This document shows positions 4,931 through 64,000 of a stretch of 64,000 nucleotides of DNA, in pieces. The notes under the pieces were generated by a model that did not search any database, had not been told where the DNA came from, and saw only the letters and a program-made list of their open reading frames with translations. The translations under genes and the position numbers were made by a program. Source of the stretch: Litoreibacter janthinus (GTDB lineage: Bacteria; Pseudomonadota; Alphaproteobacteria; Rhodobacterales; Rhodobacteraceae); NCBI RefSeq assembly GCF_900111945.1, contig NZ_FOYO01000001.1:2673751-2737750 (forward strand). Reading direction: 5' to 3'. Every line of letters begins with the position of its first letter. The first letter of the stretch is position 1.

Positions 4931-5527
4931 ATGACACACCCTCGCCTCTCCAAGTCCGCCTGCCTTGTCGCATCCCTTGTCGTAGTTACCAGCGGCACCC
5001 CGATATTTGCCGAAACGTCTGGCCAAGGCGCAGAATTGGCCTGTGATGCCACGATGATGAGCGGCAGCATCGCGCAACTGAACGCGACCCATGCCACTGT
5101 AAATACATCCATCCTAATCGACGCCCCAGCGGCAGATGTTTGGGCCACCCTAACCGATTTCGAGGCTATGGCAGATTGGAGCACGGGCACCTTGCAGGGC
5201 ATGACCGGCGACATCCGAAATGGCGGACGCGTCGTGATCACTTTCCTCTTCGGGGTTGACGAAAATGGCGACCCTGTTGCGAACGAAATTCCGCACACAC
5301 TGATCTATGAAGAGGGCAGCAAAATCGGATGGTCTGATCCATTCCCAGCGGACATCGGGGGTGGGCACGACAATCATTTCTATCAAGTCCAGCCCTGTGA
5401 CGACAGAACGCTGTTCATTCAATCCGACGGCATTGTCGACAACCCTTATGCCGCAAACTTCGTCACCCAACTTTTGCCGATGTATCAATTATTCAATGCA
5501 GAGCTGAAGGCCGCCGCAGAGAAGTAA
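4931..5527 (+). CDS. Secreted SRPBCC (START-like) family protein
   Basis: The protein has 198 residues. A Sec signal peptide covers about the first 27 residues and ends near FAE. The mature part begins with the SRPBCC pattern ILIDAPAADVWATLTDFEAM, a deep hydrophobic-ligand pocket fold. An ATG also exists at 4925, but AGGA at 4921-4924 abuts it, so the ATG at 4931 with six-base spacing is the better start. It follows the SDR gene by 40 bp and is probably co-transcribed under lux-box control. It likely binds or modifies a hydrophobic molecule in the periplasm. Confidence 0.75.
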   Translation: MTHPRLSKSACLVASLVVVTSGTPIFAETSGQGAELACDATMMSGSIAQLNATHATVNTSILIDAPAADVWATLTDFEAMADWSTGTLQGMTGDIRNGGRVVITFLFGVDENGDPVANEIPHTLIYEEGSKIGWSDPFPADIGGGHDNHFYQVQPCDDRTLFIQSDGIVDNPYAANFVTQLLPMYQLFNAELKAAAEK

Positions 5528-5727
5528 CCTGCATCTTGGCGGCCCACGATTGCCTCAGTTTGGTGCAGTCGTGGACGTCGCCTAACGATGACAGATCTGC
5601 TCGCCGCTCTTCAACGCGACGTCGTGACCTTCGGAAGCATCAGTCTTTTCCGTCTGATCGTTCACAAGCATCCACCCGATCCAGCGCTGCGCGCCATACG
5701 GATCAAACTCTACAAAAAAAGGGGTGG
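5528..5727. other. Intergenic stretch before tRNA-Ser
   Basis: There is no supported gene. An 81-codon open frame starting at 5588 runs through the tRNA gene and is rejected. No clear terminator is visible after the SRPBCC gene. Confidence 0.4.
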
Positions 5728-5817
5728 TGGCGGACAGACAGGGATTCGAACCCTGGAGACGGTCTCCCGCCTACACACTTTCCAGGCGTGCGCCTTCGAC
5801 CACTCGGCCACCTGTCC
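5728..5817 (-). tRNA. tRNA-Ser (anticodon GGA)
   Basis: Read on the minus strand the sequence folds as a class II tRNA of 90 nt including an encoded CCA. The acceptor stem is GGACAGG with TCTGTCC (one G-U pair). The anticodon loop CTGGAAA carries GGA, a long variable arm follows, and the T arm is CAGGG-TTCGAAT-CCCTG. The discriminator is G. It decodes UCC/UCU serine codons. Confidence 0.97.
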
Positions 5818-5912
5818 GTGGCGCAGGGTTTAGCCAAAAGCACGGGGGAAGCGCAAGGGGCAAATCGGCTCTTTTCAGATAGATATTAAACCCGTGTCGC
5901 CGCAGGGCCATC

Positions 5913-6626
5913 TTAGCCGTCCAGATGCAGGTGCACCCGTCGGTTATTGCGGCCCTTGTTTTCGATCTTGCCAATGCGCACGCGGCCAATCTCTGACGTG
6001 CGGGCCACATGGGTCCCGCCACAGGGTTGCAAGTCAATCTGCTCCCGCTCGGTTCCGATCCGCACGAGGCGCACGCGCCCTGCCCCTTTGGGCGGCTGCA
6101 CCGACATAGTTTTCACCAACCCGGGGTTCGCCTCCAGCTCTGCGTCGGAAATCCACTGCTCAGTCACGTCTAGATCGCGGGCGATGAGCGCATTCAGCTC
6201 GTCCTCCAGCGCAGCCTTGTCTTCAGGCGGCTCTGGCATATCAAAATCGAGGCGGCCCTTCTCTGCGCCGATCTGACCGCCAGTCACCCCCAAAGGGATC
6301 ACCACAGATAGCAGGTGCAGCGCCGTGTGAATCCGCATATGCGCATGGCGGCGATCCCAGTCGAGCACTTGAGTCACGACCGCATCATGCTCCGGACGTT
6401 CAGCGCCCTCTTCCGGGACCAGAATGACCTGTTCACCGTCGCCTTTGCGCGCATCTATGATACGACAACCACCGCCATCCCATTCCAGCTTACCCGTGTC
6501 TGCGGGCTGCCCGCCCCCTGTGGGGTAGAACAGCGCGCGGTCAAGAACGATACCTTGGCCGGACAGCGCAAGAACGGACCCTTGCGCCTGTTGCATGTAG
6601 GCGTCATCGCGAAACAACAGGCTCAT
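5913..6626 (-). CDS. Alanyl-tRNA editing protein (AlaX family)
   Basis: The protein has 237 residues and corresponds to the free-standing editing domain of alanyl-tRNA synthetase. The zinc/active-site motifs are present: H100xxxH104 (HTALH) and C202GGTH206. AlaX enzymes hydrolyse mischarged Ser- or Gly-tRNA(Ala), clearing translation errors in the cytoplasm. The start overlaps the end of the mechanosensitive channel gene by four bases (ATGA). It is therefore the last gene of the cfa-trgA-trgB-cysK-mscS-alaX operon. Confidence 0.93.
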   Translation of the reverse strand: MSLLFRDDAYMQQAQGSVLALSGQGIVLDRALFYPTGGGQPADTGKLEWDGGGCRIIDARKGDGEQVILVPEEGAERPEHDAVVTQVLDWDRRHAHMRIHTALHLLSVVIPLGVTGGQIGAEKGRLDFDMPEPPEDKAALEDELNALIARDLDVTEQWISDAELEANPGLVKTMSVQPPKGAGRVRLVRIGTEREQIDLQPCGGTHVARTSEIGRVRIGKIENKGRNNRRVHLHLDG

Positions 6627-9049
6627 GCGTCCGGGTCCTTCTTTGTGGTTTTCTTCGCAGCTGGTTTCTCGGCGGGAGGCGGGTTCAGCGCTTCGGGGTT
6701 GCGCAGCCAGACATCGCGTTGGGCAAACGGTATCTCGATCCCTTCCGCAGCAAAGCGGCGTGCGATTTCATGCCTCATCTCCGAGGGCACTTTCACCACG
6801 TAGTTCACATCGCGGATAATGGCGCGCACTTCGAAATCCAGTGAGTCAGCCCCAAATCCCGTAAACAAGACATTCGGTGGCGGGTTCAGGATCACCAAAG
6901 GCTCCGCCTCTGCGATCTCGCGTAAAATCCGCTCAACCTTGCGGGTGTCGGTTCCATAGGCGACCCCTACGGGCAAAATAATCCGCCCTGTCAGGTTGCC
7001 TTTGGTCCAGTTCGTGACCGAGGTGGAGATCAGGTCGGCGTTCGGCACGATAACATCGCGACGATCAAAGGTCTCTACCCGCGTCGCCCGCACCGAAATA
7101 TCGCGCACGACCCCCATGGTGCCGCCGACTTCGATCCAGTCGCCTTCGGAAATCGGTCGCTCGATCAACAGAATGATCCCTGACACGAAGTTCGACACGA
7201 TGGTTTGAAGGCCGAAACCAATACCCACCGACAGCGCACCAGCCACAATTGCTAGCGACGACAGATCAATCCCCGCGCTGGTGATCGCAATCAGCGCCGC
7301 GAGGAAAATCCCGATATAGCCGGTCCCCGCGACCATGGCATTGCGCCCGCCCGTATCAAGCTTGGTCCGTGGCAAAATCTGGCCTCTGAGCGTGCTTTGC
7401 ATCAAGCGGGTCAGGCCATAGCCGAGGATGAATATGATCGCAAACTTCAGGAAATCCACTGGCGAGATACGGCTTTCGCCCAAAGGCACACCTGCGGCCA
7501 CAAGCTTCCACGCCTCGCTCAGGTCGGTGACGCGTGCGCCCCAGATCAAAGCAAGAATTGGCAGCGCACACAGCACAAGGCCAAAGCCGATGAGGACAGG
7601 GATCAGGCCTGTGGAGCCTGCTTCCTCTCCACGGATCATGGCATAGATGTCGCGCACCAGACGTTGAAGGATCGCAACGCCAGCCATCAACGCGAGCGTC
7701 AGATAGGAAGAATAGACCAAGGCGTTTGCAGCAAACGTGTATCCGATCGCTGCAAGCACTGGCCCCAAAATGGCCACGACCCGTGCGCCGCGCCCCAGAT
7801 AGCGAACGACGACGCCAGACGGGGCTTCCGCCGAAGGATTGTCGCCCTCTGCCAGCGCTGCATCCTCGGCCGCTTTGGCTTGTGCGGCTTTGGCCGACGT
7901 CACCATCAGCTGCGCAATGCGGAACAGTATCAACCCAGCCAAAACAATGACTGGCAACCCCAACACGGAGGCGGCTGTTTCGGACATCAACCCTGCGGTC
8001 AGAAGGCCTGTCACCGCCGCGTTCGCCGCAATCAGTAGGCCCCCGAAATTAATCAAGACCCGCATCTGCAGGCTCTGCCCCTCGCTAAGCAAAAGCAGTG
8101 CATGAGGCGGATATGCGGGAGGCGCGATCTGACGGCCAAGCCAGCGGGCGACGTAGATGATGATGACCACAGCGGACAGAATATCAAGCAGCGATGACCC
8201 CGCGAGACCGCTCAACTGGCTCTGATCCGCGGCAGTCAGCAGCAGGATCAGGCCGGTGATGGGCAACACCACAGCGACAAGCGAGATCAGGAAAACGCCG
8301 ACCCTGACACGGGCACGGCTGGAATGGCGACTGCCCCGCAGCGCAGTCAGCCCCCGCTCGACCCACGCACCTCCGCGCAAAACCAGCGCAAGGCCTGCCA
8401 CAAGCAACACCACGATCAGCGGCAGATTGCCTTTCAATTCTTCGGAGCGAAGGGTCGACGCGTAGTTGGTCTTCACCTCGGCCACGACCTTGCCCCAGAC
8501 GTCGGCAAGCGATAGCGCCGCTTCGGGCCAGAGAGCCGGATTCACAGGCGTCGGATTAAGTTCTAGGATCTGGTTGGTTTGCCTGTCCCTGACGATACTA
8601 TCGAGCCGAGAGATCAAACCATCCGCGCGCGTATACGCTTCTTCCGCCCGTCGGATCGGCGCTGTAATCGTTTCAAGCTCTGTATTGAGCTCGTTACGAC
8701 GGTTGGAAATCTCGACCGCTTCAGTTTCGCCGTCAGCGGGGGCGGCCCCAAGCGCTTCGATCTGGCTTTTCAGAGTGGCAATACGGTCTTTGTTGACAGA
8801 CTGGCGGCGCAAAAACAGCTCGCGCCAACTGACCAGCTGTGCACGTAGCGTCTGAAGCCCGTCAAGAGAAGCACGGTTGGCCTCCAAAACGTCATTGGCC
8901 CGCGTCGCGTCCTGCTCCCACGCCTCATAATCCGGCGCGCCTGTCTCTAATGTGACTGCTTGCGCCAAAACGGGGCCATGCCCTGCAACAACGCCGAAAC
9001 ACAACGTCAGCGCAATAAGCAGCGCGCGCAACAAACCAAAACCGGTCAT
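6623..9049 (-). CDS. MscS-type mechanosensitive channel with DUF3772 domain
   Basis: The protein has 808 residues. It has an N-terminal signal peptide (cleavage near LAQA) and a periplasmic coiled-coil/DUF3772 region to about residue 190. Many transmembrane helices follow. The C-terminal MscS core begins with the pore helix rich in Gly and Ala (SLAIVAGALSVGIGFGLQTI), then the beta domain with VPNADLI. The channel opens on hypo-osmotic shock in the inner membrane. It starts directly after the cysK stop with no gap. The C-terminal tail is Lys/Ala/Pro-rich and cytoplasmic. Confidence 0.92.
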   Translation of the reverse strand: MTGFGLLRALLIALTLCFGVVAGHGPVLAQAVTLETGAPDYEAWEQDATRANDVLEANRASLDGLQTLRAQLVSWRELFLRRQSVNKDRIATLKSQIEALGAAPADGETEAVEISNRRNELNTELETITAPIRRAEEAYTRADGLISRLDSIVRDRQTNQILELNPTPVNPALWPEAALSLADVWGKVVAEVKTNYASTLRSEELKGNLPLIVVLLVAGLALVLRGGAWVERGLTALRGSRHSSRARVRVGVFLISLVAVVLPITGLILLLTAADQSQLSGLAGSSLLDILSAVVIIIYVARWLGRQIAPPAYPPHALLLLSEGQSLQMRVLINFGGLLIAANAAVTGLLTAGLMSETAASVLGLPVIVLAGLILFRIAQLMVTSAKAAQAKAAEDAALAEGDNPSAEAPSGVVVRYLGRGARVVAILGPVLAAIGYTFAANALVYSSYLTLALMAGVAILQRLVRDIYAMIRGEEAGSTGLIPVLIGFGLVLCALPILALIWGARVTDLSEAWKLVAAGVPLGESRISPVDFLKFAIIFILGYGLTRLMQSTLRGQILPRTKLDTGGRNAMVAGTGYIGIFLAALIAITSAGIDLSSLAIVAGALSVGIGFGLQTIVSNFVSGIILLIERPISEGDWIEVGGTMGVVRDISVRATRVETFDRRDVIVPNADLISTSVTNWTKGNLTGRIILPVGVAYGTDTRKVERILREIAEAEPLVILNPPPNVLFTGFGADSLDFEVRAIIRDVNYVVKVPSEMRHEIARRFAAEGIEIPFAQRDVWLRNPEALNPPPAEKPAAKKTTKKDPDA

Positions 9050-58182: not shown

Positions 58183-59481
58183 ATGCCCATCGAAATTCTC
58201 ATGCCCGCGCTTTCCCCGACCATGGAAGAAGGCACACTGGCCAAATGGCTGGTTAAAGAAGGCGACACGGTTAACTCCGGCGACATCATGGCCGAGATCG
58301 AAACCGACAAGGCGACCATGGAATTTGAGGCCGTCGACGAAGGCGTCGTTGGCAAAATCCTGATTGCCGAAGGCACAGATGGCGTCAAAGTGAATACGCC
58401 AATCGCTGTGTTGTTGGAAGATGGCGAGAGCGCCGACGATATCGGCTCGTCCTCCTCTGCGGCACCTGCCGAAGCCCCTGCAGCGGCGCCCAAAGCTGCA
58501 CAAGCAGCCGCACCGGCAGCATCCTCTGCGCCCGCTGCCCCTGCCCGCGCCGACGGCGACCGCGTTTTTGCCTCCCCTCTGGCACGCCGTATCGCCGCCG
58601 ACAAAGGGATTGATCTTGCTGGCGTAAAGGGCTCGGGTCCGAAAGGCCGCATCGTCAAAGCCGACGTCGAGAACGCGAACGCAGCCCCCAAAGCAGCTCC
58701 GGCCACCGCTGCGCCGTCAGCAGCGCCCGCTGGCGCCGCAATGGCCTCAGGTCCGACAACTGATCAAGTACGCAAGATGTACGAGGGCCGCGAATACGAG
58801 GAACAGCCACTCGACGGGATGCGCAAAACTATTGCAGCGCGCCTTACAGAAGCGAAGCAGTCGGTGCCGCATTTCTACCTGCGTCGCGACATCCAACTGG
58901 ATTCCTTGCTCAAGTTCCGCTCTACGCTGAACAAAACGCTGGAGCCTCGCGGCATCAAACTGTCCGTTAACGACTTCATCATCAAAGCGTGCGCTCTGGC
59001 GTTGCAACAGGTGCCGGATGCGAACGCTGTCTGGGCCGGTGATCGGACGCTTAGCCTGAAGCCATCGGACGTTGCCGTCGCTGTGGCAATCGAGGGCGGC
59101 CTATTTACGCCTGTGCTCAAAGACGCCGAGATGAAGTCCCTATCGGCTTTGTCGACCGAGATGAAAGACCTTGCAGCCCGCGCCCGCGACCGCAAACTTG
59201 CGCCGCACGAATACCAAGGCGGCAGCTTCGCAATCTCCAACCTGGGCATGTTCGGTATCGACAATTTCGACGCCATCATTAACCCGCCGCATGCCGCGAT
59301 CTTGGCAGTTGGAGCTGGTGCGAAGAAGCCTGTTGTTGGCGATGACGGAGAGCTGAAAGTCGCAACTGTGATGTCCACCACGCTCAGCGTCGATCACCGT
59401 GTGATTGACGGCGCGCTCGGGGCCAATTTGCTCAACGCGATCAAGGATAACCTTGAGAACCCGATGGGCATGCTCGCATAA
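58183..59481 (+). CDS. pdhC: Dihydrolipoamide acetyltransferase (E2)
   Basis: The protein has 432 residues. A lipoyl domain (residues 1-80, Lys in ETDKATMEF), Ala/Pro-rich linker, peripheral-subunit-binding domain ([17 protein letters not shown]) and catalytic domain ([16 protein letters not shown], with the active His) are in order. It transfers acetyl groups to CoA and forms the core of the complex. The E3 (lpd) gene is not next to it; a strong terminator follows at 59501. Confidence 0.96.
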
Positions 59482-59500
59482 TCAAGTACTCATATGAACG

Positions 59501-59533
59501 AAAAAGGCCGGATCGAGGGATCCGGCCTTTTTT
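59501..59533. terminator. Bidirectional terminator between pdhC and cysE
   Basis: AAAGGCCGGAT and ATCCGGCCTTT pair over 11 bases around CGAGGG, with A and T runs outside. It closes both convergent transcripts. Confidence 0.93.
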
Positions 59534-59550
59534 GCTTTAAGTCTTTAAGA

Positions 59551-60360
59551 TTAGCTCTTTCGGCCGAGTATCTGATCCATAGAAATCGACGGCTGTGCAC
59601 AGCCCGCCTCGCCCACGATCTTGGCAGGAACGCCAGCTACGGTTTTCATAGGCGGCACTGCCTCCAGCACAACCGAACCAGCAGCAATCCGCGAGCAGTG
59701 GCCGACTATGATATTGCCAAGCACCTTGGCACCCGCTCCAATCAACACCCCGTTCTCGATCTTGGGATGTCTGTCATCATGCTCTTTACCGGTCCCGCCC
59801 AGCGTGACCGAGTGCAACATTGATACGTTGTCACCCACCACAGCCGTCTCGCCAATCACAATGGAGTGGGCATGGTCAATCATAATGCCTTTGCCAATCT
59901 TGGCGGCAGGGTGAATGTCTACGCCAAATGCCTCGGATGTTCGCATCTGGACAAAATAGGCCATGTCTTTGCGCCCTTGATGCCAAAGCCAGTGACCAAT
60001 GCGGTAGGCCTGAATGGCTTGGAACCCCTTGAAGAATAAAACAGGCTGAATGAACCGGTCGCAAGCAGGGTCACGATCGTAAACTGCAACGATATCGGCC
60101 CGTGCGGCCTCGCCCAGCCAGGGCTCTACGGCATAGGCTTCATCCGCGATCTCACGCAGGATTTGCTCTGACATTTCAGGGGATGCGAGTTTCTGCGAAA
60201 AGCGATACGCAAGGGCTGCTTCCAGCTTTTTGTGATGTAAAACAGAGCCGTGGACAAGCCCCCCTAAAAGCGGCTCCGCCGTGATGGCAGTGCGTGCTTC
60301 ATCCGTGATCTGGGCCCAGACCGGGTCAACCTCGGCCAGCTTCGGGTTGGAATGTGCCAT
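59551..60360 (-). CDS. cysE: Serine O-acetyltransferase
   Basis: The protein has 269 residues. An N-terminal helical domain precedes the left-handed beta-helix (DIHPAAKIGKGIMIDHAHSI, then VTLGGTGKEHDDRHPKI). It makes O-acetylserine, the substrate of CysK. The C-terminus ends SISMDQILGRKS; whether the last residues dock in CysK is not clear because the terminal Ile is absent. In Rhodobacterales a cysE gene often adjoins the GTA cluster, as here. Confidence 0.95.
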   Translation of the reverse strand: MAHSNPKLAEVDPVWAQITDEARTAITAEPLLGGLVHGSVLHHKKLEAALAYRFSQKLASPEMSEQILREIADEAYAVEPWLGEAARADIVAVYDRDPACDRFIQPVLFFKGFQAIQAYRIGHWLWHQGRKDMAYFVQMRTSEAFGVDIHPAAKIGKGIMIDHAHSIVIGETAVVGDNVSMLHSVTLGGTGKEHDDRHPKIENGVLIGAGAKVLGNIIVGHCSRIAAGSVVLEAVPPMKTVAGVPAKIVGEAGCAQPSISMDQILGRKS

Positions 60361-60466
60361 CAGTTATCCTTTCAGGTGTCACTGCTTCCTTACACTACAT
60401 AGGCAAAATCTGGCAATTCCAATCCCGTGTCACGCGCAAAAGCGTGATCTCGCCCATCACGGCTGG

Positions 60467-61177
60467 TTAGGCGCGCGGCAAATCAAACCGAAGCAGATGC
60501 ACCGCAAGCCGAACTGTGCCCCCAGCAAAATCCCCGCCATTCGCCGTAAGTTTAAGCTGCGTGTTGCTAAAATAGGCCTGTGGCTGCCCTGTTATCCCGC
60601 GCAGCCAAGACCCCGCGCCTATGCCAAGGCCGCTTCCGTAGCGCGTATCGGAGACATCCACTCCTAACGACCAATCGTTCAAAGTTCCTGTTATCGGCGC
60701 GACGACCAACCCAGTAATCGCAAGCACGACAGAGCCGTTTGGAATAACAAAACCCGTAAGGGCGTTAGCTCCGGCACCAATATCAAAGTCGAATTCGACA
60801 GTTTCGGCCCGCATCGAGGCACCAAAGGGCGATGATGACAGCACGTTATCCTGCCATTCAATGCCGTCGAAACTAACCCTGACCGCTTCATCAGCCACGT
60901 AAAGGCGCCACCCGACCAGCGGCGTCAGGAACTCCCATCCGCCGTTCAGGAAGAACGCAAGATTACCGTCTTCATTGTCCCAAGCATTCACCCCGCCCGC
61001 CGGAACGAGATAACAATCCCCTTCCTCGGCCAAGGCGGGCGGCGTTGCCAAGGACCGGCTGAGCACGCTAAGTTGCAGTGCCGCGTCAATCCTTGCCAGC
61101 GCCTCGTTCACGGTTACATGCTTCTGAGCCTGTGATGCCGCAAGCAAAGGAAGCTTCAGAGTTGTTGTTTCAGCCAT
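60467..61177 (-). CDS. DUF2793 GTA/phage-type tail-associated protein
   Basis: The protein has 236 residues from the ATG at 61177. The opening LKLPLLAASQAQKHVTVNEALARIDAAL is the DUF2793 signature, found next to GTA and phage tail genes. The rest is a beta-rich, fibre-like domain (WLRGITGQPQAYFSNTQLKL). Its start overlaps the stop of the fusion gene by eight bases. It probably decorates the tail fibre; with the tail genes absent its use is unclear. Confidence 0.85.
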   Translation of the reverse strand: MAETTTLKLPLLAASQAQKHVTVNEALARIDAALQLSVLSRSLATPPALAEEGDCYLVPAGGVNAWDNEDGNLAFFLNGGWEFLTPLVGWRLYVADEAVRVSFDGIEWQDNVLSSSPFGASMRAETVEFDFDIGAGANALTGFVIPNGSVVLAITGLVVAPITGTLNDWSLGVDVSDTRYGSGLGIGAGSWLRGITGQPQAYFSNTQLKLTANGGDFAGGTVRLAVHLLRFDLPRA

Positions 61178-63674
61178 TGATTTCGATCCTTGAGAATAAT
61201 CCCGGTCCAAAGCGCAACGACACTTGCGCTACTTCGATGTCATAGGGGCCTGTCAGCCCGTCGGCGGCTTGCGCTGCGCTTGAATAGATCCAAGATGGGG
61301 TGGCCGTTTCGATCTCTCGCTTGACGCTTCCGCCTTGGCTTATCCGTACGAGATAGCGCTCGACTTCTTCACCCAATGGAACTTCCACCGAAGCCCAACT
61401 ATCTCCGTCGATCCGCGTGCGGCGGATCCAGCTTAGGGCCAGATCGCTGCCAGTGTTGTGGGCCTTGAGCCGCGTCGGCGCGTACGGTCGCAATCCAATC
61501 CCCTGAAATGCCTCGACATAATATCTGTAGGACGGGTCATCGTACGGCCGAAGCGAGGGGCCAATCCGGTAATGCCGCGCCAACCCACGATTGGATAGTT
61601 GCGCTGTAATTTGGGCTGGCCCGCCATCAAGCATCACAATCCGGCTACCTGCGGGCCAAAGCTCTGGTATCAGACCGTCGCTCCCCGCCTGCCCCCGCAA
61701 CAGATCCGACAGGTCGAACATGTCTGTGCCAACAAGGTTTGCTTGAGCGAACTGGATGATCTCCCAATTATCTGACGAGCCGTCACCGATCGCCGCAACA
61801 TTGGTCCCGTTCAGAACTGCCTCTCGGGTAACGGAGCTCAATGGAGCTCCCGAAATCTTGACCCTCAGTGGTTCTCCCCGTTGCCAGATACCTGCTTTCG
61901 CCGCCAAAAGGGGAGTCTCCAACACCCCAATCCTCGAGGGCTGCTCGATCACCGAGTTTAGGTCGTAGCCGCTATCCTCTGACGAGCCATAGACAGCAAC
62001 GCCGCCCGGCCAAGGTCGTGCGAACGCTGCCACATATGGGGCATGCGCAACCTCGTCCCCTTTAAGAAGCGGCAGGTCCATGAACTGAGCCACCACCGGA
62101 ACAGGCACCGCAAAGGGGCGCACCTCGCCGACTGTCTCGACTGCTTCGCTTGGTGTGTAAATGTGGCGCTCCACCCGCACTGCCTCAATCCGGCGCGCAC
62201 CGCGATCCTCTATCCGGTCAACACGGTACAATGTCGTGTCACCCCGCGCATCCGTGAGCTCTGCCAGGTCGCCTGCCCTCAGATCGCTGCGAGAGGGTGG
62301 CAAAGAAAAGCTGACCGCATCCCGTGAAACCCGGGCTTCCGACAACCAACGCTCGGCAATTGTGGTCGCCTCCGCTTCGGTTAGCGCCAGCGGTAATTCG
62401 TTCTGGGTTACGTCAGATGTGCCATCATGGGGGAACCGAGCGTCTGCAATACGCGCGACAAACTCACCTTCGGCCTCGACATAGCCAAGACGCACTTCTC
62501 CCACGACCTCTGCCATTGGCGCGCGAACCTTCTCAAGCGTGGCGTCCCCGGAATTGACCACCAACTCCGCATCGCTCACGCCATGTTCGCTCGCATCCTT
62601 TCGGGTTTGAAACACAATCTTGCCGCCGCGTTCGATCGCATCGAAACCCAGCGCGATCATCAACGGCTGCAATGCCGCGCGGGGTGTATCGAAATCGGCG
62701 ACGCTAAAACCGCGCACGATGCCATGAAGGTTGGTCGCGTCATAATCTATGAAGCTGACACTTTCACAGATTTCACCAACGACATGCGCCAACGGCATCA
62801 CAGAGGTCCGACCGGTCAGCCAATGCCCCGTCACGTGATTTTGCCCGTCACTCCAAATCGAAAGATCGCTTGGAAAATTCGGCCAAGGTCGCGCATCCCA
62901 CGCCCAAACGAAAGCCCGCGACATGTCCACCATCGGGCCGTCGTAAAGAGAGCTCTCGGGATTGTTCTCGGATTCACCAAAAAAGCCGTAATAGGCGCGC
63001 AAGTACTGCATTTGAACATAGTCATCCCGCTTGCCGCTTGAGAAATGCGGGATCGCGCTTTCGCTAGATTTCGGATCTAGAAACTTGTTCGGCTCGTTCG
63101 GAGCTTTGTTGATTGCGGCGCAGCCAATCTCATCCACCCAAGCCGCGTCAAACTGCGGGCCGCGCATATGCTCAGGCGAGGACGCGCTATGCGCCTCCGC
63201 GACAGCTCCGTTCGGCCACACAAGGCGACGCCGTGTCGCTTGCCATTCAGGGCGCCGATCAGGGGGCGAGCATGCCAGTATCCCGCTGTCGCCAAAAATC
63301 ATCACGTCCCTTACTTGGTCAAACGTCTCGCCCACCAACGCCACGCGCCGCGCACGGCCCGCGTCACCGGGCATGTTGCCTTCGACCATCATCCGCACCC
63401 ATTCGGCGCCGGCACGTGTCTTACCCGCGCCGCGCCCGCCCATAATCACCCAAGATCGCCAATCGACTTGCGGTGGCAGCTGATGCGGATGGGCCCAAAA
63501 GTCGAACAGGAACGGCAGAGCCGACATTTCCTGCTCGCTCAACCCGTCAAGAAAGGCGTCCTGCACCGCTCGCGGCGCGGATGCTATCAAGGCGGCGCCT
63601 GATCTCAATTCGGGCTGCTCCAAGGTCGAGGGCGTATTCTCCAGCTCGACCGGCACGCTTTCTGCGGTGTTCAT
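61170..63674 (-). CDS. Fusion of GTA large terminase ATPase half with GTA tail/host-specificity protein
   Basis: The protein has 834 residues from two GTA genes. Residues about 30-182 match the N-terminal ATPase of the GTA large terminase: Walker A GGRGAGKT (79-86), CSPPDRRPEW (135-144), Walker B ending WVDE (179-182). From about residue 183 the chain continues as the GTA gene-15 type protein, starting in its TIM-barrel-like domain (NKFLDPKSSESAIPHFSSG) and running to its C-terminus. The terminase nuclease domain and the g15 N-terminus are missing. The junction is near 63129. The frame is open throughout; the start codon is uncertain because it overlaps the small-terminase gene by 128 bp. Confidence 0.88.
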   Translation of the reverse strand: MNTAESVPVELENTPSTLEQPELRSGAALIASAPRAVQDAFLDGLSEQEMSALPFLFDFWAHPHQLPPQVDWRSWVIMGGRGAGKTRAGAEWVRMMVEGNMPGDAGRARRVALVGETFDQVRDVMIFGDSGILACSPPDRRPEWQATRRRLVWPNGAVAEAHSASSPEHMRGPQFDAAWVDEIGCAAINKAPNEPNKFLDPKSSESAIPHFSSGKRDDYVQMQYLRAYYGFFGESENNPESSLYDGPMVDMSRAFVWAWDARPWPNFPSDLSIWSDGQNHVTGHWLTGRTSVMPLAHVVGEICESVSFIDYDATNLHGIVRGFSVADFDTPRAALQPLMIALGFDAIERGGKIVFQTRKDASEHGVSDAELVVNSGDATLEKVRAPMAEVVGEVRLGYVEAEGEFVARIADARFPHDGTSDVTQNELPLALTEAEATTIAERWLSEARVSRDAVSFSLPPSRSDLRAGDLAELTDARGDTTLYRVDRIEDRGARRIEAVRVERHIYTPSEAVETVGEVRPFAVPVPVVAQFMDLPLLKGDEVAHAPYVAAFARPWPGGVAVYGSSEDSGYDLNSVIEQPSRIGVLETPLLAAKAGIWQRGEPLRVKISGAPLSSVTREAVLNGTNVAAIGDGSSDNWEIIQFAQANLVGTDMFDLSDLLRGQAGSDGLIPELWPAGSRIVMLDGGPAQITAQLSNRGLARHYRIGPSLRPYDDPSYRYYVEAFQGIGLRPYAPTRLKAHNTGSDLALSWIRRTRIDGDSWASVEVPLGEEVERYLVRISQGGSVKREIETATPSWIYSSAAQAADGLTGPYDIEVAQVSLRFGPGLFSRIEING

Positions 63675-63903
63675 CCAGTTTTCCTTCTGCGTCTCTACTC
63701 GTGTTCAACAGATGCTGAAGATCCGTCTTCAGCTTTGCTTTCAGGGTTGAAGGAACCGATTGGTCTGTACGCACACGCCGCCATTCCCGTCTGACTTCCA
63801 TCGTCAGGTCATGGGCCATGATCGTTAGGTCCTCCAAAATCTCGTCTACAGTCTTCGTCACCAATGTGTCCGGCGAGCCGGGTGAATCAGGGGTCTCTGT
63901 CAT
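63547..63903 (-). CDS. GTA small terminase-like protein (g1 type)
   Basis: The protein has 118 residues. It is helical and charged (TVDEILEDLTIMAHDLTMEV, then LLNTSRDAEGKLDEHRRKR), matching the small first gene of Rhodobacterales GTA clusters, which encodes the DNA-binding small terminase. CAGGAGGCCCC precedes the ATG. It overlaps the start of the fusion gene. The end of the chain is basic. It should be complete. Confidence 0.8.
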   Translation of the reverse strand: MTETPDSPGSPDTLVTKTVDEILEDLTIMAHDLTMEVRREWRRVRTDQSVPSTLKAKLKTDLQHLLNTSRDAEGKLDEHRRKRAGRAGEYALDLGAARIEIRRRLDSIRAASGAGRLS

Positions 63904-63963
63904 GGGGCCTCCTGCGTCCCTCGCCAGCGGCGGGGAGGCTCAGTCTAGGGACGGAAAAACAAA

Positions 63964-63999
63964 AAAGCGGCCTTGGATCCTCGTGACCCGAGCCGCTTT
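63964..63999 (-). terminator. Terminator of a gene entering from the right
   Basis: On the minus strand AAAGCGGC and GCCGCTTT pair around a 20-nt loop, followed by a run of T. It ends transcription of a gene beyond the window edge and separates it from the GTA remnant. Confidence 0.75.
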
Positions 64000-64000
64000 C

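Follow-up and report, generated by a model that had tools for sequence, protein, structure and literature searches.

Analysis of the GTA locus of Litoreibacter janthinus revealed a remnant of an RcGTA-like cluster, in which a GTA-type terL and a GTA-type g15, at the conserved fabF-mltG-[GTA]-cysE locus, are joined in frame into one chimeric gene. An earlier, sequence-only reading of this DNA had described the fusion as a single event; it is no one-off, and the identical join recurs in dozens of lineages whose DNA differs. Such an apparently identical cut across many relatives, with one fused gene left each time, suggests a directed or favoured loss and not a random one. It is possible rather than probable that the Alphaproteobacteria carry a repeatable GTA off-state, a codon-exact deletion reached time after time, in two orders, by a specific mechanism or through an advantage of the chimera; if this is true, fused and intact cells would be non-producer and producer morphs coexisting within species.

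The last minus-strand genes of the window (the whole stretch of 64,000 nucleotides that was analysed) are the 118-aa ORF, the 834-aa chimera ORF and the DUF2793 gene (Table 1). The locus lies between fabF/mltG and cysE/pyruvate dehydrogenase genes, flank names that are presumed here from similarity, in the same place as the intact cluster of relatives. The chimera ORF has no internal stop over its entire length. Pfam analysis placed Terminase_6N on chimera residues 77-183 (profile 2-105 of 215), GTA_TIM on residues 173-268 (profile 204-299 of 299), Phage-tail_3 on residues 330-490 and Rcc01698_C on residues 581-680, and chimera residues 172-832 aligned with residues 643-1302 of the RcGTA megatron chain 6tba_8A, which has 1304 residues. 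The terminase part showed 85-89% identity with residues 1-184 of intact TerL from six genomes of the genus. In an alignment with own-clade TerL and g15 DNA, terL accounted for residues 1-182 and g15 for the sequence from residue 183; the crossover falls after the D codon and before the residue that follows E, and E182 is encoded at 63131-63129. The earlier reading had correctly placed an in-frame TerL-to-g15 deletion fusion at this codon, and its further assignments were borne out as well: Walker A (G79-T86) and W179-x-D181-E182 occupy invariant alignment columns, and the C-terminal 650 or so residues of g15 begin inside the TIM domain, as the GTA_TIM match shows. The alignment of 70 rows contains 69 distinct proteins, since P0046 was entered twice.

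Table 1. Features at the chimera locus, in positions of the window
Feature	Position	Strand	Evidence
Chimeric gene, TerL ATPase half and megatron/g15 C-terminal half, 834 aa	61170..63674	-	ORF, Pfam, 6tba_8A alignment
Terminase part (residues 1-182), which holds Walker A and Walker B	63129..63674	-	Pfam Terminase_6N
Walker A GGRGAGKT, residues 79-86	63417..63440	-	Invariant columns, 70-row alignment
Join W-V-D-E-I-G-C, residues 179-185	63120..63140	-	Alignment with own-clade TerL and g15 DNA
Megatron part, residues 183-834: remaining peripheral/TIM, central and fiber-binding domains	61173..63128	-	Pfam, 6tba_8A
118-aa ORF, probable GTA small terminase (g1), overlaps chimera start	63547..63903	-	Position as g1 beside terL
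DUF2793 protein, overlaps chimera end; follows g15 in intact relatives	60467..61210	-	Pfam, locus comparison

The chimera retains the Walker A and Walker B residues of the terminase ATPase. A full-length TerL with its nuclease domain is absent, as TerL stops at residue 182-184, and the full-length megatron (g15) is also absent, with only the part matching RcGTA 643-1302 left. According to the RcGTA domain borders in the available part of PMC7296036, which were used for the chimera, its g15 has lost the N-terminus that forms the pore, together with the adhesin-like domain. The 118-aa ORF gave no Pfam match and is called small terminase by its position; a related ORF lies upstream of terL in intact relatives. 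For RcGTA, PMC6854486 describes binding of gp1 to the ATPase domain of TerL (L27-V258). An Rfam scan of 59000-64000 gave no match.

The extent of the loss was evident from the intact relative G001, in which the two joined W codons are separated by 11,337 bp (about 11.3 kb); in intact relatives, portal, protease, capsid and tail genes stand between them. The whole genome of L. janthinus (G000) contained a single match to the chimera and no match to GTA capsid. The intervening head-tail genes are gone, as had been claimed, and a second intact cluster in the same strain, for which the genome was searched, is ruled out. The GTA capsid was also missing from nine of ten fused genomes tested, the tenth having one prophage-like match of 35%, while it was found in all four intact genomes tested. 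Since capsid and most head-tail genes are absent, a fused cell cannot build GTA particles. The capsid match of G015 (L088), the intact sister of fused G018, contains an in-frame TGA in an otherwise complete cluster, which may reflect an extended query start or an early loss of function.

Among the 21 genomes of the genus, the exact join (W-x-D-E/x-G-C, the slash marking the join) was present in three, the window's own included, and the genus search recovered full-length fusions in G016 (72% identical) and G018 (60%). The family search, covering 394 genomes, showed at least 14 full-length fusions among the matches listed, again including the window's own, and with the frameshifted G091 and G373 the exact join is present in at least 16 of the 394. 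In Ruegeria, 10 of 54 genomes carried the fusion, one with an internal TGA, and in a third genus 4 of 19. The junction pattern was also scanned over a species-level collection with one genome per species, where it occurred in 74 contigs, all 74 with terL before and g15 after the identical join. Most of these are Rhodobacterales; nine belong to Hyphomicrobiales (Devosia, Mesorhizobium, Chelativorans, Aminobacter, Phyllobacterium and UBA3584), two further contigs group with Devosia, and the Hyphomicrobiales fusions have g15-C identities of about 31-36%. A protein database search with the whole chimera showed the fusion architecture in 111 of the 120 best clusters, in a list where length favours fusions; with the g15 part alone as query (P0161), 40 of the best 120 were fused and 69 intact, the other 11 being undecided. 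The junction pattern had no match in viral contigs. In L284 (G091; L178, L290 and L291 aside), the exact join is followed by a frameshift at about residue 900 of g15, which exemplifies decay, and in L126 (G457) the fused frame is open far upstream of the terL start, over 1310 codons, probably as a mere open frame in high-GC DNA.

That the fusion is an assembly or sequencing artefact, named earlier as the main alternative, has become extremely improbable: the identical codon join is found in isolates as well as in metagenome-assembled genomes whose DNA is unrelated, and in near-complete assemblies of one contig (G493) or three contigs (G140 and G016). Assembly error was rejected on these grounds.

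The precision of the cut was examined in 16 fused loci, in all of which terL ends at reference residue 184-185 and g15 starts at 659. The DNA of the fused gene corresponds to own-clade terL up to and including the codons for D and E, and to own-clade g15 thereafter. The residue after E tracks the local g15: it is F in L121, beside the F-type intact G266, G420 and G372, and Y in G484, G493 and G498, beside the Y-type G492 and G485. Across the fused set this residue is Y, F, I or M, with the g15 start codon unchanged. The DNA common to both sides of the join is at most GARYTGG (7-8 bp), and about GAR in the Y and F types. Regarding other deletions of the cluster, approximately 17 sampled genomes were found, with scattered breakpoints and mostly out of frame (G002, G023, G231, G356, G430, G455, G458, G461, G476 and others). 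These retain the cluster ends just as the exact fusion does, while their breakpoints vary between genomes: portal::g15 in G002 and G430, TerL 371::g15 329 in G023, TerL 290::g15 1098 in G112 and capsid::g15 934 in G461. A different in-frame chimera occurs in G455 (L226), TerL 149::g15 1233, which keeps the last 86 g15 residues. The g15-side alignment ends near 930-938 in G433, G461 and G081, a possible weaker recurrence, and the exact join outnumbers every other individual breakpoint. In L285 (G066), whose terL lies near locus 5009-5545 (minus strand), the break falls within a few bases of W-x-x-E and is followed by non-g15 sequence; this may be a separate deletion or a hint of a break-prone terL side.

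Recombination at short similarity had been proposed as the origin of the join. In G001, G013 and G015, the number of direct-repeat segments scoring 9 or more was 4,935-7,012 each, none of them at the join. When similarity conserved over 28 intact genomes was ranked, 81-162 of about 4.8 million comparison windows of 24-36 nt beat the join, as did 3,702 at 12 nt, and for most window sizes the join was among the best few hundred. The proposal is therefore weakly supported: the join does rank well, yet a homology hotspot was rejected, with thousands of better direct repeats per cluster and the join high in rank, not first. The similarity of the DNA at the join is weak and insufficient to account for the identical cut, and since other similarities in the cluster exceed that of the join, homology leaves the precision unexplained. 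A sequence- or structure-directed break with a high deletion rate would explain why one site pair recurs while other deletions scatter, and the terL end of the deletion in G066, within a few bases of the join site, would fit such a break. This explanation is nevertheless improbable, given that the shared DNA does not exceed 7-8 bp and is shorter in the Y, F and M types, that neither a recombinase nor a repeat was found, and that G066 is a single case among about 17 others.

In the g15-C tree of the genus and its relatives, G000 grouped with the intact genomes G001 and G009 (100/94), and the partner of G018 was intact G015 (100/100). In the host mltG tree, G018 and G015 formed a pair (100/100), G000 fell with G001, G002 and G013, and G016 stood outside. 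From these placements, at least two and probably three fusion events would have occurred within the genus. In Ruegeria, the fused genomes G435, G457 and G479 paired with intact G431, G454 and G439/G464, respectively, with agreement between both halves, and fused P0036 shared 97% identity with intact G437 in each half. On 258 rows, and with fusion assumed to be irreversible, at least 41 origins were counted when a support of 0.95 was required and 68 when the full tree was used; at equal costs, 36 changes were needed, compared to a mean of 55.8 and a lowest value of 50 in 200 label shuffles. A less biased set of 113 rows, from which seven undecided rows had been dropped beforehand, gave 31 origins for 40 fused rows under the same assumption of irreversibility, and 26 changes at equal costs, compared to a shuffled mean of 33.0 and a lowest value of 26 in 200 shuffles. 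Since these counts lie at or below the lowest of the shuffles, some clade signal is indicated, which in the 113 rows is weak, yet present. Judged from the trees, the fusion arose many times or flips often.

The identical join and its near-random scatter would also be accounted for, without a hotspot, if a very small number of old deletion alleles, perhaps a single one, persisted as a producer/non-producer polymorphism and moved between genomes by homologous recombination via the terL and g15 arms, with subsequent exchange with intact copies giving the flanks their local appearance; this reading as a whole is considered unlikely, though well short of negligible. Exchange of terL between species was seen in intact Ruegeria, where G449 and G454 share 94% of terL-N DNA as against 71% of g15-C. 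In addition, fused P0126 best matches its intact sister P0162 beyond about 90 residues and not near the join, and G435 and G431 differ at all five third positions beside the join. In contrast, divergence near the join was not generally raised, and mosaics were no commoner among the fused rows (13/135) than among the intact ones (16/92). Import of the junction from elsewhere was accordingly rejected, as the systematic tests were negative, with P0126 and perhaps G435 being suggestive. The Hyphomicrobiales join, at the g15-C identities given above, is too distant for recombination, so several origins would be needed in any case.

Both halves of the fused genes remain constrained. The dN/dS between fused and sister intact copies was 0.025-0.081, where intact pairs fall as well; of the 11 comparisons made, some had saturated synonymous distances. 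Walker A (GGRG[AS]GKT) was conserved in 176 of 178 fused rows. Among the 74 junction contigs, 45 frames were fully open, nine were broken and 20 were open until the end of the sequence, and an ORF stood at the small-terminase position in 59 of the 60 contigs having enough upstream DNA. An old and useless chimera would be littered with stops, and the chimera is therefore young each time, refreshed, or useful. L, S, M or G preceded D-E in 15 of 178 fused rows and in none of 64 intact rows, samples that differ in taxa; this hints at a changed constraint, in a comparison confounded by taxon sampling. No fused-specific constraint shift was found in g15-C. The D of W-x-D-E is no independent finding in the 157 proteins classed as fused, because it served to class them; among 15 proteins outside these 157, the terminase domain was present in P0091 only, joined elsewhere. 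P0091 (1272 aa) has terL joined further along, past L-A-K-W, and g15 retains its own W-F-T-E, a rare alternative fusion.

The AlphaFold model, built from 70 fused rows, had a mean pLDDT of 75.9, with values below 50 at residues 52-84 (Walker A) and 182-222, patchy values up to about 290 and mostly 80-95 beyond. Foldseek matched the chimera model to phage tail-tip proteins, among them the megatrons of RcGTA and R4C. The model does not predict a folded join, and a requirement of fold as the cause of the exact cut is not supported.

These data bear on the idea that the chimera is useful and that selection repeatedly fixes the deletion that makes the fused protein, for example as a decoy in, or a block to, the assembly of phage or GTA, in which the ATP-binding stub would meet the small terminase and the megatron half would hold the fibers. 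Such selection would account for both precision and open frames: the join retains the D-E of Walker B, the g15 start codon is the same even where Y, F, I or M follows E and the shared DNA is reduced to about GAR, and the exact join is commoner than any other single breakpoint. The retention of Walker A and of the ORF at the small-terminase position would fit as well, as would the altered residues before D-E, with the difference in taxa noted above. Nevertheless, a useful chimera is rather unlikely, considering the low pLDDT around Walker A and the join, the finding of no fused-specific shift in the constraint on g15-C, the nine broken frames, and a weak clade signal that speaks against long-lived fused lineages.

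The reading preferred here, at somewhat less than an even chance, is that the locus is a precise, recurrent and fast-turnover GTA-null allele. One precise deletion (11.3 kb in G001) would remove the DNA from the Walker B of terL to the similar W-x-x-E of g15, leaving the small terminase, the chimera and the host flanks in place. The exact deletion would arise, or be re-acquired, repeatedly, and its fast turnover against the intact cluster would leave fused and intact copies mixed at the tips of the species-level trees. Each fused copy would be young or continually refreshed, so that both halves retain the constraint of working GTA genes. The exact cut itself might reflect the W-x-x-E similarity, weak but conserved, together with a filter that lets in-frame products pass, and the spread of the short allele may be aided by recombination. 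The selected chimera and the recombining old allele come close behind this fast-turnover null allele.

It is an open question whether, and in what way, GTA production is maintained or lost; models predict non-producers. The fusion offers a molecularly defined and easily screened null allele, met repeatedly with one junction, whose frequency in strain collections and metagenomes could be scored. Should selection on the chimera be the source of its precision, the allele would be a striking convergent gene fusion; should the source be a directed break or an old allele, it would show how such clusters get switched off.

No published description of a terL-g15 fusion was found in the literature covered, to which subscription papers do not belong. 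The literature covered includes PMC6209664, PMC7296036 and PMC6854486, and the available part of PMC7947584 makes no mention of fusion, truncation or deletion. When compared to the RcGTA-type head-tail cluster of Rhodobacter capsulatus and relatives, the chimera locus is of the same type, with the small terminase position, TerL and the megatron, and differs in having no portal-to-g14 genes, no nuclease half of TerL and no N-terminal half of the megatron, so it is not a particle-producing GTA. According to the available part of PMC10883770, pseudogenised or incomplete GTA clusters mark non-producers (“cheaters”), and incomplete clusters were set aside. GTA production is likewise lost in scattered lineages among the clusters described there; that part of the study treats pseudogenes and whole loss, whereas the present locus is a recurrent, exact in-frame chimera, which is not mentioned in it.
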